DNA from: Deltaproteobacteria bacterium
GTDB taxonomy: Bacteria > Myxococcota > JADLHZ01
Direction of reading: 5' to 3'
DNA: 64,000 bases
Assembly (NCBI GenBank): GCA_020848545.1
Contig: JADLHZ010000006.1
Coordinates: 1 to 64,000, forward strand
The position numbers were made by a program, and so were the translations under genes. This document shows, piece after piece, positions 202 through 63,773 of this stretch. A model generated the notes under the pieces. The model worked only from the letters and a program-made list of their open reading frames with translations, was not told the origin of the DNA and did no database searches. How positions within the stretch are numbered: the first letter of the stretch is position 1; each line of letters opens with the position of its first letter.

Positions 202-437
202 GCGCCCGCGCGCTCGTGTTCATCCGCGCGCCGCGGATCGTGCGGGTGGGTGCCTCAGTCGAGGTCTTGGATCGCCATCGCGGTGAGCCGGTGCTCGTGC
301 GGCAGCGGAACGTCACCGCGGCGACGTTTCATCCTGAGCTCAGCGCGGACGCGGCGTTCTTTTACGCGAGCCTGCCGTTCAGCGAGAGCGCGGCGGACCA
401 GCTCATGATCGGCGTCGGCTCGTCTGCGCCCTTGTAG
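202..437 (+). pseudogene. pdxT: pdxT fragment, N-terminal part missing
   Basis: This frame encodes the C-terminal end of PdxT, the glutaminase subunit that feeds ammonia to PdxS. Visible motifs are [21 protein letters not shown] and [13 protein letters not shown] carries the His and Glu of the glutaminase catalytic triad. The first two thirds, including the nucleophile Cys, are absent. The fragment is in a different frame from the pdxS piece immediately upstream, so no fusion protein is made. The last 25 or so codons overlap the 3' end of the convergent creatininase-family gene, so the present stop may not be the ancestral one. Confidence 0.75.
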
Positions 438-1294
438 AGGACGGCTTCGCTGACCTCGGCGAAGCGACGGGTGATCTCTCGGGCGAAGAACGCGCCGGCT
501 TCCTTTGTCGCGAGCGCGGGCTCAGAGGTGTAGCCCGGGTAGCCTGGGATCGCGTGCCAGCCTTTGCCGCGCGCGGCGAACGCGAGCTCCTGGCTCAGGG
601 TCTTCGCGCCGAGCTTCCCGGCGACCTTGCTCGCGAGCTGGAAGGCCCGCTCGTTCGTGATCTTCGGGCACGGCGGCAGCGACGTGTAGTTCTTGCTCAC
701 GGTCTCGGGCGCGTAGTGCAGCGTGAGGCTCGTCTCGAAGAAGCCGGCGTGGAAGTCGAACTTCAATTCGCGAAGCATGGCGCTCCGCTTCGGCTGGGCC
801 ACATGCGCGAGGGCAGGCGCGAAGCGTTCAGGCTCGAGCGCGAGCATCTCCGCCAGAAGATCGTTGAACGGCGACAGCGCGACGACCCCGCGCTTCTTCA
901 GCGCCTTCACGCCGGCGGTGACCGCGAGGTTGTGCAGCGGATCGCCGTGGAAAGTGATGAGCACGACGCGCTTGGCGCCGAGATCGGCGAGGCGGTCGCA
1001 GGCGTCTATGACGAGCGCGCGCACGGTCTCGAAGGGCGTGTGGCGGCTGCCGGGGCCGGGCGCGGGACCCACGCCGACCTCGAGATCGTCGGCGACGAGG
1101 AGCTCCGCGGGGTGGCCCTTGGCGGCGAGCGCTCGGTGCACGTCTTTGACGATGCCCCGGCTGATGTGGAGGTCGTTGTGGAGCGACAGGTGCGGGCCGT
1201 GGAACTCGACCGGGTTGACGGTCATCCACACTGGGGCGCCCGTCGCGAGGAGCGCCCTGAGGTCCTGTTGGGGGAGATCGAAGAGCCGAATCAT
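362..1294 (-). CDS. creatininase family amidohydrolase
   Basis: The 310-residue protein belongs to the creatininase/creatinine amidohydrolase family of metal-dependent amide hydrolases. The family signature is near the N-terminus: [13 protein letters not shown] fits the E-x-HGxHLP-x-x-x-D pattern of metal ligands. Later segments [10 protein letters not shown] and HAGFFETS also match family positions. It is somewhat longer than typical members of about 250 residues. No signal peptide is visible, so it is probably cytoplasmic. Members act on creatinine, on flavin or mycofactocin precursors, or on other small amides, and the sequence does not show which. It lies 45 bp downstream of rph on the same strand and may be co-transcribed with it. 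Confidence 0.75.
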
Positions 1295-3539: not shown

Positions 3540-6248
3540 ATGTTTGAACCCTTCGACCGCCGCGGCCAGGACTCGGGCTCACCAGAGAGCGACATCGACC
3601 CCGAAGAGACCAGCGAGTGGATCGATGCGCTGAAGAGCATCGTCAAAGTCCACGGCAAAGATCGGGCCGCGTACATCCTCAAGCATCTGCAAACGCAGGC
3701 GCAGGCGCAGGGCGTGCCGCTCCCGTTCGAGCCGACCACGCCGTACATCAATACGATCCGGCCGGAAGATCAGCCGGAGTACCCGGGCGATCGCAAGCTC
3801 GAGGCACGCATCCGCGCGATCATCCGCTGGAACGCGATGGCGATGGTGGTGAAGGCGAACAAGCACTTCAACGGCATCGGCGGCCACCTCTCGACGTACG
3901 CGAGCGCGGCGCACCTCTACGAGGTCGGCTTCAACCACTTCTTCCGCGGCAAGTGGAAGGACTTCACCGGCGACCAGATCTACTTCCAAGGCCACGCGTC
4001 GCCCGGCATCTACGCACGCGCGTGGATGCTCGGCCGCTTGACCGACCAGCACCTCGAGAACTTCCGGCGCGAGTTGCAGCCGGGCGGTGGCCTCAGCTCG
4101 TATCCGCATCCGTGGTTGATGCCGGATTTCTGGGAGTACCCGACGGTGTCGATGGGCCTAGCGCCGCTCATGGCGATCTACCAGGCGCGCTTCAATCGCT
4201 ACTTGCAGGACCGCGGCATCCGCGACACGAGCCACGCGCACGTCTGGGCGTTCTTGGGCGACGGCGAGACCGACGAGCCCGAGACGCTCGGCGCGATCAG
4301 CTTGGCGGCGCGCGAGCAGCTCGACAATTTGATCTTCGTCATCAACTGCAATTTGCAAAGGCTCGACGGCCCCGTGCGCGGTAACGGCAAGATCATCCAA
4401 GAGCTCGAGGCGAACTTTCGCGGCAACGGCTGGAACGTCATCAAGGTGATCTGGGGCAGCGACTGGGACGAGCTCATCGCGAAGGACTCGACGGGTGAGC
4501 TCGTGCGGCGTGCCGGCGAAGTCGTCGACGGTGAGTATCAGAAGTACGTCGTCGAAGGCGGCGCCTACATCCGCGAGCACTTCTTCAACACCGACACCTT
4601 GAAGAAGATGGTCGAGCACATGAGCGACGAGCAGCTCGCGCACCTCTCGCGGGGCGGCCACGACGAGGCCAAGCTCTACGCCGCGTATCAGAACGCGGTC
4701 GAATGCAAAGGCCGCCCGACGGTCATCTTGGCGAAGACGATCAAGGGCTTCGGCCTCGGCGACGCCGCCGAAGGCAAGAACGTCACGCACCAGCAGAAGA
4801 AGCTCGACGTCGCGCAGCTCAAGAAGATGCGCGACCGTTTTCAGATCCCCGTGCCGGACGACAAGATCGAAGATCTGCCGTTCTACAAGCCGGCCGACGA
4901 CGCGCCGGAGATGGTGTACCTGCGCGAGCGCCGCTTGCGCCTCGGCGGTTACGCGCCGGCGCGGCACATCAAAGCGAAGCCGCTCGAAGCACCGGGCCGC
5001 GAGATCTTCGCCGAGTTCTACAAGGGATCGACGGGCCGTCCAGTGTCGACCACCATGGCCTACGTGCGCATGCTGACGATCCTCTTGCAGGACAAGAACC
5101 TCGGCAAGCTCATCGTGCCGATCGTGCCGGACGAAGCGCGCACCTTCGGCATGGACGCGCTCTTCCGTCAGATCGGCATCTACTCGCACATCGGCCAGCG
5201 CTACGAGCCGGTCGATAAGAGCCAGCTGATGTATTACCGCGAGGCCAAAGACGGGCAGCTGCTCGAAGAAGGCATCACGGAAGCGGGCTCGATGTCGTCG
5301 TGGATCGCTGCGGGCACGGCGTGGTCGACGCACGGCGTGAATACGATCCCGCTGTTCATCTACTATTCGATGTTCGGCTTCCAGCGCATCGCCGATCTCA
5401 TTTGGGCCGCCGCCGACGCACGCGCGAAGGGCTTCTTGCTCGGCGCGACGGCCGGACGAACGACGCTCCCGGGCGAAGGCCTGCAGCACCAAGACGGCCA
5501 CTCGCACGTCTTCGCGCTGACGGTGCCGAACTGCATGGCCTACGATCCGGCGTACGCCTACGAGATCGCGATCATCATCCAAGATGGCATCAAGCGGATG
5601 TACCAGAACGGCGAAGCGATCTTCTATTACATCACCGTGATGAACGAGAACTACGAGATGCCGGCGATGCCCGAGGGCGCCGAGGACGGCATCCTGCGCG
5701 GCATGTACCTCTTGCGCGCAGTCGACGCGCAAAAGCCGGCGAAGAAGAAGAAGCTGCACGTGAACCTGATGGGCAGCGGCACGATCTTGAACGAGGTCGT
5801 CAAAGCCGCGCAGATCCTCGCCGAGAAGTTCGGCGTCGCCTCGAGCGTCTACAGCGCCACGAGCTACAAAGAATTACGCCGCGACGCGATGGAGTGCGAG
5901 CGCTGGAATATGCTGCACCCGGAGCAGGAAAAGAAGCGCTCCTACCTCGCGAAGCTCTTCGACGGCGCCGAAGGTCCGTTCGTCTCGGCGAGCGACTACA
6001 TGCGCACCTTCGCGGAGCAGATCGCGCCGTACCTGCCGGGCAAGCTGACCACGCTCGGCACCGACGGCTTCGGCCGCAGCGAGACGCGCGAAGCCTTGCG
6101 GCGCTTCTTCGAGGTCGACGCCGCCGCGATCGTCGTTGCGGCGCTGCACGCGCTTGCGGAGGAAGACAAGATCGCGCGCTCGGTCGTCACGCACGCGATC
6201 GCCGAGCTCGGGATCAACCCGGAGCAGCCCGCGCCGTGGACGGTTTGA
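3540..6248 (+). CDS. aceE: pyruvate dehydrogenase E1 component, homodimeric type
   Basis: AceE catalyses thiamine-diphosphate-dependent decarboxylation of pyruvate and acetylates the lipoyl group of E2. The 902-residue length suits the single-chain E1 of Proteobacteria (about 890). GHASPGIYARA and the TPP/Mg motif GDGETDEPE at about residue 240, followed by NCNLQRLDGPVRGN, are diagnostic. The C-terminal transketolase-like half has TAGRTTLPGEGLQHQDGHS and ends SELGINPEQPAPW-like. No E2 or E3 gene follows, so the complex is encoded in pieces. The gene ends within a perfect inverted repeat that includes its stop codon. Confidence 0.97.
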   Translation: MFEPFDRRGQDSGSPESDIDPEETSEWIDALKSIVKVHGKDRAAYILKHLQTQAQAQGVPLPFEPTTPYINTIRPEDQPEYPGDRKLEARIRAIIRWNAMAMVVKANKHFNGIGGHLSTYASAAHLYEVGFNHFFRGKWKDFTGDQIYFQGHASPGIYARAWMLGRLTDQHLENFRRELQPGGGLSSYPHPWLMPDFWEYPTVSMGLAPLMAIYQARFNRYLQDRGIRDTSHAHVWAFLGDGETDEPETLGAISLAAREQLDNLIFVINCNLQRLDGPVRGNGKIIQELEANFRGNGWNVIKVIWGSDWDELIAKDSTGELVRRAGEVVDGEYQKYVVEGGAYIREHFFNTDTLKKMVEHMSDEQLAHLSRGGHDEAKLYAAYQNAVECKGRPTVILAKTIKGFGLGDAAEGKNVTHQQKKLDVAQLKKMRDRFQIPVPDDKIEDLPFYKPADDAPEMVYLRERRLRLGGYAPARHIKAKPLEAPGREIFAEFYKGSTGRPVSTTMAYVRMLTILLQDKNLGKLIVPIVPDEARTFGMDALFRQIGIYSHIGQRYEPVDKSQLMYYREAKDGQLLEEGITEAGSMSSWIAAGTAWSTHGVNTIPLFIYYSMFGFQRIADLIWAAADARAKGFLLGATAGRTTLPGEGLQHQDGHSHVFALTVPNCMAYDPAYAYEIAIIIQDGIKRMYQNGEAIFYYITVMNENYEMPAMPEGAEDGILRGMYLLRAVDAQKPAKKKKLHVNLMGSGTILNEVVKAAQILAEKFGVASSVYSATSYKELRRDAMECERWNMLHPEQEKKRSYLAKLFDGAEGPFVSASDYMRTFAEQIAPYLPGKLTTLGTDGFGRSETREALRRFFEVDAAAIVVAALHALAEEDKIARSVVTHAIAELGINPEQPAPWTV

Positions 6249-12546: not shown

Positions 12547-13785
12547 TCAGCGCGAGAAGGCCGGGCCCGGGAAGAACGCGACGTCGATCGGCGGCAGATC
12601 GGTCGCGAGCGCGGCGCCGAGCTCGTTTCCGGTCGCGGTCTCGTACATGCCGATCTTGGTGCCGGCGCGCAGCGGCAGCCCGATGTAGGCCTGGCCGCGA
12701 TCGTTCACCTCGACGAAGCTCGCCGAGGTGAACGCCTTCGGCCCCGGCGCGAGCAGCGGCTCCGCGACGAGGCCGCTCTTCGTGAAGCGGCGGATCTCGT
12801 AGGTTGGCGCCAGGTAGTCGCCGTCGGTGAAGACGAAGGCGACGCCGTTCTGCTTGCTGTCGAGGTCGAAGGACATGACCGAGCCGCCGATCTCTTGCTC
12901 GGTGAACAAGTAGCCTTTGTGCTCGAGCGTGACCTGATCGATGCGCTCGACGCCGCCGCACGCTTCGATGCTCGCCGGCGCGAACGGGCCGGGCGTAGAG
13001 ATCAGCACGTTGTTGGTGTTCGGCTCCGGCACCCAGCGCGCGGGCGATGGCGCTGGGTTCGTGCCCTTCAGCTTGATGATCTTCACCACCTTGTCGGTGT
13101 CGAGATCGATGACGGCCACGCGGCCCGCGACGAAGCCACACTCGCCGGTCGTCGGGTACAGCGCGAAGTAGCTCTTGCTGTCGAGCGCCGAGATCGCCAC
13201 GAACAAGTGCTCGTTGTCTGCGTAGAGCGCGCCGAGCTCGTGCCAGCCGTCCGGGTCTTCGCTGGCGAGGGTGTCACCGGCCGCGAGCAGCGCTGCGGCG
13301 ATGTCGATGCGCGCCGTGATCGCGCCCGTCGTTGGGTTGATCACGCTCACCTCGTTGCGGTGCTCGTACGATGGCGCCGTCGTCAAGCCGGGCTGTGTTG
13401 TCATGTACGCCTTCGTCTTGCTGACGGCCCAGAAGTCTTGCACGTTCGTCGCTTCGCCGAGCGCCCATTGGCACTCGGGGCAGGCGAGCGCGTAGCCGTT
13501 CTTCGGATCGATGACGGTCAGGGTGTTCTTCGTGCCGTTGAACTCGCGGCCGATGATGTAGAGCACTTCGCCGAAGACGCGGACGAGCGAGTCCTCGCTG
13601 ATCGCGTCGGCGCCGAGCACGCGGCCGGCTTCGCGCGTCTTCACGTCGATCGCTTGCAGCTCGCTGCCGCCGCCGAAGTTGGCCGCGAAGACGAAGGCGG
13701 TCGTCGACGTCGGTGCGGGCGGTGGCGAGTTCTTCGGCTGCACGCAAGCGGTGAACGAGATGAAGAAGAGGGGCAGATATTTCAT
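12547..13785 (-). CDS. propeller-like surface lipoprotein, candidate BtuG-type cobalamin-binding partner
   Basis: The 412-residue product has a clean lipoprotein signal (SFTAC, Cys at about 14). The body has repeated short beta units with small-residue turns, such as LQAIDVKTREAGRVL, NTLTVIDPKNGYAL, NEVSVINPTTGAITARI and GRVAVIDLDTDKVVKIIKL. This is the pattern of YVTN/WD-like beta-propellers. Its ATG overlaps the stop of the upstream TonB-dependent receptor (ATGA), and an AGGAG box lies within the end of the receptor gene. Both lie downstream of a cobalamin riboswitch. In Bacteroides, BtuG is a beta-propeller lipoprotein that caps the B12 receptor BtuB. I infer a similar role from architecture and context, not from detected homology. 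Confidence 0.6.
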   Translation of the reverse strand: MKYLPLFFISFTACVQPKNSPPPAPTSTTAFVFAANFGGGSELQAIDVKTREAGRVLGADAISEDSLVRVFGEVLYIIGREFNGTKNTLTVIDPKNGYALACPECQWALGEATNVQDFWAVSKTKAYMTTQPGLTTAPSYEHRNEVSVINPTTGAITARIDIAAALLAAGDTLASEDPDGWHELGALYADNEHLFVAISALDSKSYFALYPTTGECGFVAGRVAVIDLDTDKVVKIIKLKGTNPAPSPARWVPEPNTNNVLISTPGPFAPASIEACGGVERIDQVTLEHKGYLFTEQEIGGSVMSFDLDSKQNGVAFVFTDGDYLAPTYEIRRFTKSGLVAEPLLAPGPKAFTSASFVEVNDRGQAYIGLPLRAGTKIGMYETATGNELGAALATDLPPIDVAFFPGPAFSR

Positions 13786-15911
13786 GACGGAGTCTCCTGA
13801 AGGTTCAGCATTTCGCCAAAGGCGTAGCTCAAGGTGAAGAAGACGCTGCGACCAGGCAGCGGAAAGCCGATGAAATCGACGATCGAGACGTTCACGCGAT
13901 CGCCCGCGGCCGACGCGACCAAGCTCTGCGTCCGTTGGTCGAGCAGGTTGCGCAGATCCAAGGTGAGGCGCACCGGGCCCGACCACGGACGCACGCTCAG
14001 CGTGGCGTTCAGCACGTAGCGCGAGGGCGCCGAGCGCAAGGCCGTGGTGTCGAGGTAGGTGGCGGCGATGTATTGAAATTCGAACATGACGCGGGCGTCC
14101 ACTGGGCGCGGGATCAGGAAGGTCGTCTCGATCCGCGCTTGGTGCGGCGGCCGGCCGGGGAGCGGCTTGTTCAGCGCGATGCCGTCCGAGAGGTTTGCGG
14201 TGTGCTGGAAGGTGTAGGTGGCTGCGAGCCGAAGAAACGATACCGGCTCCGCGCGGGCGCTCAGCTCGACGCTGCGCACGATCGCGCGCCCGATGTTCTC
14301 GGCGCGCGGCAGCTCGATGCCGGCGTAGACGAGCGCGATCAGTTGATCGAGGCGACCCTCCGAGTAGACGGCGTCGGCGGCGATGAAGCGGCGGTGAAAG
14401 AAGTGCGCGCCGGCGTCCCACGTCCACTGCTGCTCCGGGCGCAGCGCCGGGTTGCCGCGCACTTGCCCGTCGCTGCCGAAGAGCTCGTAGAAGTTCGGCA
14501 CACGCTCGCGCCGGCCGACGTGCGCAGCCAGCGAGAGGCCCGGCAACGGAGCGCCGCGCATGCCGAGCGCCGGTTGCAGCCAAACGCGCGAGGCGTCGAT
14601 CGCTTCGAGCACGTCGCGCTGAAAGAGGCTCGGCGCCGAGCGGCCACGATCGCGCAGGCCGTCGATGCGGCTCGCCGCCTCGAGCTCGATGCGATCGTCG
14701 AGCCACGCGCCGCGCAGCGAGAGCGATCCGCCGGCCAAGAAGCGCTGCCGCTCTTGAGCCGAGAACGAGGGCGAGCGCGCGTCGAAGATCGTGCCGCCGG
14801 CGTTTAGGCTCGCGGCGGCGGTGAGCCAGTCGGTCGCGAGCCAAGTGAGCACGTGGTTCGCCCGCAGCTCGAGCTCGCGCGTCGTCTGCTCGGTGGTGCC
14901 GCTATAGAACGAGGGCAAGAGGTCGCTGAAGTGGGCCACGTTGCCGGCCGCGCTGAGCAAGACGTCGAGGCGTACGCGCGGATGCAGGAAGCAATCGTCG
15001 AGGCGCGCGCGCAGCACCGGTCGCCACTGCGCGAAGCGCGCGTTCTGCTGCACGATCGACGACGGACCAGGCGAGCCTTGCTCCTTCGTGAAGAAGTCGG
15101 CGACGACGGCGAAGCGCGCGCGTCCGAGCACTTCCCGCTGCAGTGTGAGGGTAAACGCGCCGGCGTTCTGATCGTTGTTCGGCCGCGCGATCGTGCGGTC
15201 ATCGGCGGTGGCGAGCGGCGTGCCGCCGTCGTCGGCGTAGGGGAAGTCGCCGGTCTTGCCGAAGTAGACGGCCGAGCCGGCGAGGGTCCACGCTCCGAGC
15301 GTGAGCGCGGCGCGCAGCCCGACGTGGCGGGTGGCGAACGATCCGGCGCCGACGTGGGCCACGCCTCCGGTCGCGATTCGGCGCGGCGTCTTCAATACGA
15401 GCGCGCCGAGGAAGCCGTCGGGGCCGAGCGTGACCGGCGCGAGCCCGCGGTAGACGTCGAGGCTTGCGAGATCGAAGAGCCACAGCGTCGACAGATCGAC
15501 GGTGCCGATGCTCGTCGGCGAGAGCGGGGCGCCGTCCAAGTACACGCCGATCTGCGCCGAGCTCGAGCCGCGGATGGCGACGGTGCTGAAGTCGCCGATG
15601 CCGCCGAGCGAGCGCACCGCCGTGCCAGCGCTCTGGCGCAGCGCTTCGGCCGCGCTCGGATCGGCGGTCGTCCTTTGCGTCGGCGTGAGATCGATGTGCG
15701 AAGAGAACGCCGCCGTCGTGTCGGCGTCAGGCGCGAGCGCATCCGCGGCGACGGCGATCGGCGCCACGTCGACCGGCGCGGACGCTGGCGCAGACGTCTG
15801 GGCGACGACGCAAAGCGCGGCAAGGGCGGAGACGCTGGGCACGGACGGGAGCCTCAGGCGCTCGATTCGCGGAGCACCAATCGAAAAGTGATCGTGCGCC
15901 TTTTTTGGCAC
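13782..15911 (-). CDS. TonB-dependent receptor, probable cobalamin/corrinoid importer
   Basis: The 709-residue protein has the plug-plus-barrel layout of TonB-dependent outer membrane receptors. The plug is at about residues 75-170 (SLGGIGDFSTVAIRG, GVYLDGAPLSP, LDVYRGLAPVTLG) and barrel strands follow. It ends near an aromatic strand (VFFTLSYAF) with a short extra tail. A cobalamin riboswitch lies immediately upstream, so vitamin B12 or another corrinoid is the likely substrate. The chosen start is a GTG located in a 7-bp stem next to the riboswitch. A GTG 23 codons downstream is a weaker alternative. It overlaps the downstream lipoprotein gene by 4 bp, so the two are probably translationally coupled. 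Confidence 0.88.
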   Translation of the reverse strand: MPKKAHDHFSIGAPRIERLRLPSVPSVSALAALCVVAQTSAPASAPVDVAPIAVAADALAPDADTTAAFSSHIDLTPTQRTTADPSAAEALRQSAGTAVRSLGGIGDFSTVAIRGSSSAQIGVYLDGAPLSPTSIGTVDLSTLWLFDLASLDVYRGLAPVTLGPDGFLGALVLKTPRRIATGGVAHVGAGSFATRHVGLRAALTLGAWTLAGSAVYFGKTGDFPYADDGGTPLATADDRTIARPNNDQNAGAFTLTLQREVLGRARFAVVADFFTKEQGSPGPSSIVQQNARFAQWRPVLRARLDDCFLHPRVRLDVLLSAAGNVAHFSDLLPSFYSGTTEQTTRELELRANHVLTWLATDWLTAAASLNAGGTIFDARSPSFSAQERQRFLAGGSLSLRGAWLDDRIELEAASRIDGLRDRGRSAPSLFQRDVLEAIDASRVWLQPALGMRGAPLPGLSLAAHVGRRERVPNFYELFGSDGQVRGNPALRPEQQWTWDAGAHFFHRRFIAADAVYSEGRLDQLIALVYAGIELPRAENIGRAIVRSVELSARAEPVSFLRLAATYTFQHTANLSDGIALNKPLPGRPPHQARIETTFLIPRPVDARVMFEFQYIAATYLDTTALRSAPSRYVLNATLSVRPWSGPVRLTLDLRNLLDQRTQSLVASAAGDRVNVSIVDFIGFPLPGRSVFFTLSYAFGEMLNLQETPS

Positions 15912-15913
15912 AC
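15894..15913 (-). promoter_or_regulatory. hairpin enclosing the TonB-receptor start codon
   Basis: On the minus-strand RNA, GUGUGCC and GGCGCAC can pair as a 7-bp stem (one G-U pair) around a six-A loop. The GTG start of the receptor is inside the 5' arm. Its position directly after the riboswitch suggests sequestration of the start site, but no ribosome binding site is obvious upstream. This is an inference from the sequence. Confidence 0.4.
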
Positions 15914-15918
15914 GGCTC

Positions 15919-16106
15919 GAGGCAGGTTTCCTGACTCATCGGGCGGTGACTCTCGTCACCCGCGTGCTCGCCTTCCCAAAGTCCGCTTTTTTGGCGCTTC
16001 AGTGGCTTGGCTCAGCGCTCTCGCACTGAGGAGCACGCGCAACCGATTTACAGTGGCGCGTCCGTGCCGGATTCTCACCGGCTTCCCTTGGCACACGCAG
16101 GACCAT
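15919..16106 (-). ncRNA. cobalamin (AdoCbl-type) riboswitch
   Basis: Read on the minus strand, the leader contains the conserved boxes of the B12 element in order. These are AAGGGAAGCCGGTG near the 5' end, AATCCGGCACGGACGCGCCACTGTAA, and the 3' box GAGTCAGGAAACCTGCC at 15921-15937. The 3' box ends about 8 nt before the receptor start codon, which itself lies in a hairpin. There is no U-tract terminator between the switch and the gene, which favours control at translation initiation. I assigned the ends from the conserved boxes, so they are approximate. Confidence 0.93.
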
Positions 16107-16243
16107 CCCGCGCGGACCTCGAAACGGCGCCGGGCTTGGCACGCGCTCTGGCGCGGTGTCAACGCCGCCGCGAAATCACCCGTCGTCCTGACCGAGCGGA
16201 CAGTTTGTCGCAACCTTCGCGTTGGCCGGCCGAAAAGGTGGAT

Positions 16244-63676: not shown

Positions 63677-63773
63677 GAGCTAGTTGTAGGGCAAACCTCG
63701 GGTGACCGAGGGACGCAAAGCCGAGAAGCTCCCGCGACACCCATGCGAAGGAGCTCGTCCGGTTGTCTAGCTT
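63677..63773 (+). ncRNA. cyclic-di-GMP-I (GEMM-I) riboswitch
   Basis: The leader contains the conserved GGGCAAACC at 63689-63697, a stem CCTCGG/CCGAGG closed by a GTGA loop, and GGGACGCAAAGCC at 63710-63722. A second stem (GAAGCTCC/GGAGCT) follows, then CGGTTGTC. AGCTAG at 63678-63683 pairs with CTAGCT at 63767-63772 to close P1. Together these fit the GEMM-I aptamer. The AGGGC context keeps a G at the position that distinguishes c-di-GMP from 3',3'-cGAMP binders, which I read as favouring c-di-GMP. Confidence 0.88.

Follow-up and report, generated by a model that had tools for sequence, protein, structure and literature searches.

Does a bacterium outside the Bacteroidetes capture vitamin B12 with a lipoprotein lid seated on its outer membrane receptor, in the manner of BtuG and BtuB in Bacteroides? 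This question is raised by a 64,000-nucleotide stretch of contig JADLHZ010000006.1 (the window) from a Deltaproteobacteria bacterium placed by GTDB in the Myxococcota, in which a cobalamin riboswitch precedes the genes for a TonB-dependent receptor and a propeller-like lipoprotein. By computation, we identified the riboswitch, the gene order, the type of the receptor, the propeller fold of the lipoprotein, its similarity to BtuG and a pairing that is kept in many genomes. We consider it likely that the operon serves corrinoid uptake and that a divergent BtuG-like lid works with BtuB to capture corrinoids. The original prediction, made from the letters of the window, spoke of a myxobacterial-type genome; this label is fair at the phylum level, and the genome is the sole member of its genus and family among the genomes listed.

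The operon and its receptor

The operon lies on the minus strand in the order riboswitch, receptor, lipoprotein, and comprises the following features:

15904-16136, minus strand: cobalamin riboswitch aptamer (RF00174; cmscan 86.1 bits, E 8e-20, full model 1-189)
13782-15842, minus strand: gene for a BtuB-type TonB-dependent receptor (PF07715 and PF00593; start codon uncertain)
13794-13798, minus strand: ribosome-binding site AGGAG of the lipoprotein gene (direct reading)
13782-13785, minus strand: 4-bp ATGA overlap of the receptor stop codon (TGA) and the lipoprotein start codon (ATG) (direct reading)
13744-13785, minus strand: putative lipoprotein signal peptide with the lipobox FTA-C, Cys14 (sequence reading)
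12547-13785, minus strand: gene for a BtuG-like propeller lipoprotein of 412 amino acids (AlphaFold2, Foldseek, profiles)

The score of the aptamer compares with a gathering score of 31.5 bits for RF00174, and the region folds 4.1 standard deviations below shuffled sequences. A search of the 8.0-Mb genome found just this one cobalamin riboswitch. Both the riboswitch ahead of the receptor gene and the 4-bp overlap had been predicted and are confirmed here. The predicted interval, 12547-16106, contains nearly the whole operon, but the aptamer match extends to 16136. Two start codons are candidates for the receptor, GTG at 15842 and GTG at 15911, the second of which would place the start inside the aptamer match, in its 3' tail. 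At the other end, a convergent protein-kinase gene lies 16 bp from the end of the operon.

The receptor contains a plug domain (PF07715, 2.2e-11) and a barrel domain (PF00593, 1e-25). As a single sequence, it matches the TonB-B12 model TIGR01779 weakly (1.3e-15) and under the model cut-off. When we built a profile from 22 receptors of the loci described below, its ten best matches in the PDB were all BtuB chains. Bacteroides BtuB1 (8blw_A) ranked first with an E-value of 8e-57 over one full-length stretch, and E. coli BtuB came next after BtuB1 with an E-value of 5e-47 over two stretches. The receptor is of the BtuB type, and BtuB is its nearest relative of known structure. Bacteroides BtuB1 bears a BtuG lid, and in BtuBG complexes the release loop EL8 of BtuB enters the BtuG pocket.

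Conservation of the gene pair

We searched for relatives using the propeller only, by sequence and profile within the phylum and by DNA patterns (four close members) in GTDB genomes, and drew the flanks of 91 distinct loci. A gene for a BtuB-like receptor is directly upstream on the same strand at 73 of the 74 loci with more than 2.5 kb of upstream DNA. Where a receptor and more than 3.3 kb of upstream DNA are present, a cobalamin riboswitch precedes the receptor at 59 of 67 loci, so that the proposed order of riboswitch, receptor and lipoprotein does recur in relatives. For named loci, riboswitch positions were taken from a genome-wide search and converted to locus coordinates, with the identity of the contig established by matching coordinates; a motif check supported 21 of the 34 converted stretches listed and was uninformative for the rest. 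Because the genome-wide search found mostly one or two cobalamin riboswitches per relative genome, chance adjacency is negligible. Even weak propeller matches, which we had taken as the expected negative control for specificity, proved to share the operon context. Furthermore, the distances among receptors are correlated with those among their propellers (40 pairs; Mantel r 0.66, 0/999 permutations), and the main groups are common to the two trees; this is joint inheritance, not contact. The conservation of the arrangement argues for function.

Using a broader profile (E <= 1e-5), we detected the propeller family in 128 of the 195 genomes of the phylum and 58 of its 90 genera, with neighbours checked for part of the loci. 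The family is also present in records named Eisenbacteria, Latescibacterota, Gemmatimonadetes, Acidobacteria and Tectomicrobia. The system had been proposed for one myxobacterial-type genome, and it is present there, but its spread is far wider. The operon in the window belongs to a real, divergent and widespread BtuG-like branch.

Other riboswitch arrangements were also seen. L016 (the same locus as L107) has back-to-back divergent cobalamin riboswitches at 316-444 (-) and 503-715 (+), and L080 has a second one at 4407-4619 (-), downstream of the operon.

Relationship of the lipoprotein to BtuG

An AlphaFold2 model of the lipoprotein (predicted local distance difference test 85, predicted template modelling score 0.89) contains seven strand groups by our reading, corresponding to seven blades. 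In a Foldseek comparison with solved structures, ranks 1-11 were occupied by chains of BtuG1, BtuG2 and BtuG3 (template modelling scores of 0.54-0.62 by query length), which bears out the propeller-like fold of the original prediction. Directly behind BtuG stands XusB, the siderophore lid. This ranking could suggest that the lipoprotein aids the uptake of some other ligand, for instance a siderophore, in a partnership like that of XusB with XusA. However, a cobalamin riboswitch lies ahead of most testable loci (59/67) and the best relatives of known structure of the receptors are BtuB proteins, and we regard another ligand as highly improbable. We also considered whether the lipoprotein is itself a member of the XusB group and rejected this, as BtuG outranks XusB in fold and a cobalamin riboswitch lies upstream.

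Sequence profiles agree with the fold. A profile of 9 relatives, containing no member from the Bacteroidetes, had BtuG chains as its nine best matches in the PDB (best E 2e-10), and E. coli YncE trailed at 3e-5. With a profile of 51 relatives, BtuG again held ranks 1-9 with E-values from 2e-9 to 1e-7, and the following match was at 3e-4.

Several observations weigh against a BtuG-like protein paired with BtuB. Searched alone against the PDB, the single lipoprotein sequence returned zero matches, BtuG included, and profiles were therefore needed. Identity to BtuG is about 15%, and the link is visible by profiles only. We compared the pocket with BtuG2 residues Trp194, Trp272 and Tyr316, for which both the transfer of numbering and the alignment are unsure at this level of identity. 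One pocket-region Trp of BtuG is opposite a Gln in the family and a Ser in the window protein in this unsure profile alignment, so that the lipoprotein pocket probably differs from that of BtuG. Among the loci, L131 has enough upstream DNA and no receptor (1/74), and the riboswitch call is absent at 8 of the 67 loci that have a receptor and sufficient upstream DNA (over 3.3 kb).

The low identity and the seemingly unconserved pocket aromatics would suit a different history, in which another YncE/YVTN-type propeller was recruited independently, joined BtuB separately and came to work similarly without being BtuG by descent. Propeller families do recombine and converge, and XusB, next in the fold ranking, is another propeller lid. 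Yet the non-Bacteroidetes profiles favour BtuG over all other propellers in the PDB by at least three orders of magnitude in E-value (best versus best), and the profile alignment to BtuG keeps the same blade register and reaches the C terminus. The partner, the gene order and the riboswitch are likewise all common to BtuG systems. Independent recruitment is possible in our judgment, if rather doubtful, and the profiles point to an origin of the lipoprotein and BtuG that is probably shared. The original prediction of a "parallel" capture system was right to expect a BtuG-like fold, but the word itself is probably wrong, given this sign of shared ancestry in the sequence profiles.

The most conserved positions in the mature protein include D52, R67, N101, D104, D164, D166, G167, N230, P231, G287 and G288. 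In the model, these appear mostly in or beside the loops that, in one blade after another, run into the innermost strand, which would place them on one face, as expected for a ligand face. The Pfam family DUF5074 scores 21.5 bits against the lipoprotein, under its gathering cut-off of 27.2, and gives weak matches in 4 of the 51 family members. We rejected it as a bridge to BtuG because a 231-amino-acid BtuG3 fragment does not match DUF5074.

Anchoring, corrinoid supply and wider meaning

The signal of the window lipoprotein is MKYLPLFFISFTAC, with a lipobox and a short linker. This call was read from the sequence and from the alignment, and the lipobox Cys is invariant in a 9-member alignment of relatives. 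The Eisenbacteria propellers (L092, L104 and L110) have no lipobox and carry a C-terminal FlgD_ig or Por secretion tail (sorting) domain. It appears that the anchoring route was swapped in this group, with the C-terminal domain in place of the lipid anchor, and such domains fit an extracellular site. At L120:1597-7029, a single receptor has a BtuG-like propeller on each side, all under one riboswitch.

Two further variants were observed at the N terminus. At L080:6641-8254 (-) and L067:6524-7774 (+), a stalk of STIG1-type Cys-rich repeats separates the propeller from its lipid anchor, in members that seem to be Myxococcaceae- and Anaeromyxobacter-like. The second propeller of L120 has an EF-hand/dockerin-like N terminus.

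Anchoring bears on a further alternative, namely that the lipoprotein acts in the periplasm or in assembly (as a chaperone or BamB-like protein) and binds no corrinoids. The surface location of the lipoprotein is a prediction, the sorting of lipoproteins in the phylum is poorly known, and L067 gives a weak PQQ_2/BamB match. Against such a role stand the extracellular C-terminal sorting domains of the Eisenbacteria members and the gathering of the most conserved residues in loops before the innermost strands, on one face. We judge a periplasmic or assembly function to be unlikely.

The genome of the window has 11 matches to the B12-binding domain (PF02310), 10 of them above the cut-off. The ring-synthesis enzyme CbiC, one marker and not a full pathway test, gave no match in this genome, which therefore probably imports corrinoids. 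A single Peripla_BP_2 gene with a FecCD permease gene after it, a BtuF/BtuC-like pair, is found on another contig. In other genomes, a divergent BtuF-like gene (L120), an ExbB gene (L020) and genes resembling cobT and cobS (L087, L094 and L098; named by inspection) occur near the operon.

A recurrent family of secreted proteins or lipoproteins ending in AGFDLDAVAV is usually encoded between riboswitch and receptor (L014:6473-7477, L016:904-1851, L090:2860-3747, L120:2873-3769, L132:2196-3170 and others). This family has no match in Pfam and none by sequence in the PDB, and 5 of 8 members match the NCBIfam LIC_13355 lipoprotein. BtuG1 was its first Foldseek match, with a template modelling score of 0.33 for a model with a predicted local distance difference test of 72, which is too poor to use as a sign of structural kinship. 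We consider the family a candidate for a new corrinoid-binding accessory. Elsewhere in the window, a cyclic di-GMP-I riboswitch at 63680-63770 (+; 46.8 bits) lies upstream of an open reading frame from 63816 that starts with a PilZ domain (PF07238), and apparently controls this protein of a cyclic di-GMP-binding type.

We propose that, when cobalamin is scarce, the riboswitch allows joint production of the BtuB-type transporter and the BtuG-like lipoprotein, which B12 would repress. An outer membrane anchor would hold the lipoprotein at the cell surface, where it would form a complex with the transporter and sit on it as a lid. A pocket on one propeller face would capture corrinoids, which would be handed to the transporter with a motion of the lid. 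Powered by TonB, the transporter would then move them inward for delivery to a BtuF/BtuC-type importer whose genes lie elsewhere.

BtuB-BtuG of Bacteroides thetaiotaomicron (PMC6143338, PMC10404256) also combines a cobalamin riboswitch, a BtuB-type receptor and an adjacent seven-bladed propeller lipoprotein, and both partners in the window match it best, in structure as well as by profile. In contrast to that system, the family described here belongs to other phyla, has about 15% identity and seemingly changed pocket aromatics, and varies in its anchor (short linker, Cys-rich stalk or C-terminal sorting domain). Bacteroides BtuG binds corrinoid very tightly, whereas binding by the window lipoprotein is predicted. 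The xenosiderophore system XusA-XusB (PMC13142918) similarly has a propeller lipoprotein as a lid on a TonB-dependent receptor, but its ligand is a siderophore, its annotation is DUF4374 and its fold rank against the window lipoprotein is lower. E. coli BtuB is a vitamin B12 receptor of the same type under riboswitch control, but it is without a BtuG lid, and the receptor profile aligns to it in two separate stretches but to Bacteroides BtuB1 over the full length. Although BtuH, BtuJ (DUF4465) and BtuK are accessory corrinoid-binding lipoproteins of B12 loci, none is a propeller lid, and BtuJ is a jelly roll (PMC12751083).

Wexler 2018 described BtuG as exclusive to the Bacteroidetes after searching 313 genomes from the human gut with BlastP at a cut-off of 1e-10 (PMC6143338), and according to Abellon-Ruiz 2023 lipoprotein-capped TonB transporters seem to be exclusive to this phylum (PMC10404256). 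A BLAST search at 1e-10 in gut genomes would be blind to the window family, which explains the discrepancy. We found no report of BtuG in the Myxococcota or the other listed phyla in the openly licensed literature. A recent paper showed that B12-binding proteins of the DUF4465 type also occur outside the Bacteroidetes, Myxococcota included (PMC13398666), and the wider idea is thus emerging. BtuG lids in the Bacteroidetes are known; what appears to be new here is a BtuG-like propeller paired with BtuB outside them.

On balance, we lean towards the view that lid-assisted corrinoid capture is old and widespread in Gram-negatives (Myxococcota, Eisenbacteria, Latescibacterota, Gemmatimonadetes, Acidobacteria and others) and not private to gut Bacteroidetes. 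The lid would have been re-anchored several times, counting a lipid with a short linker, a lipid with a STIG1-type Cys-rich stalk and a C-terminal sorting domain, and its pocket would have diverged, perhaps for other corrinoids. Two papers (PMC6143338, PMC10404256) connect BtuG and capped transporters with gut competition. Should the system prove to be common in lineages of soil, sediment and groundwater, such competition would not be its whole explanation, and environmental bacteria may be strong competitors for corrinoids. If true, this view would also give the pedal-bin mechanism a much wider range of natural variants, and it suggests a function for a large and mostly unannotated family of propellers.

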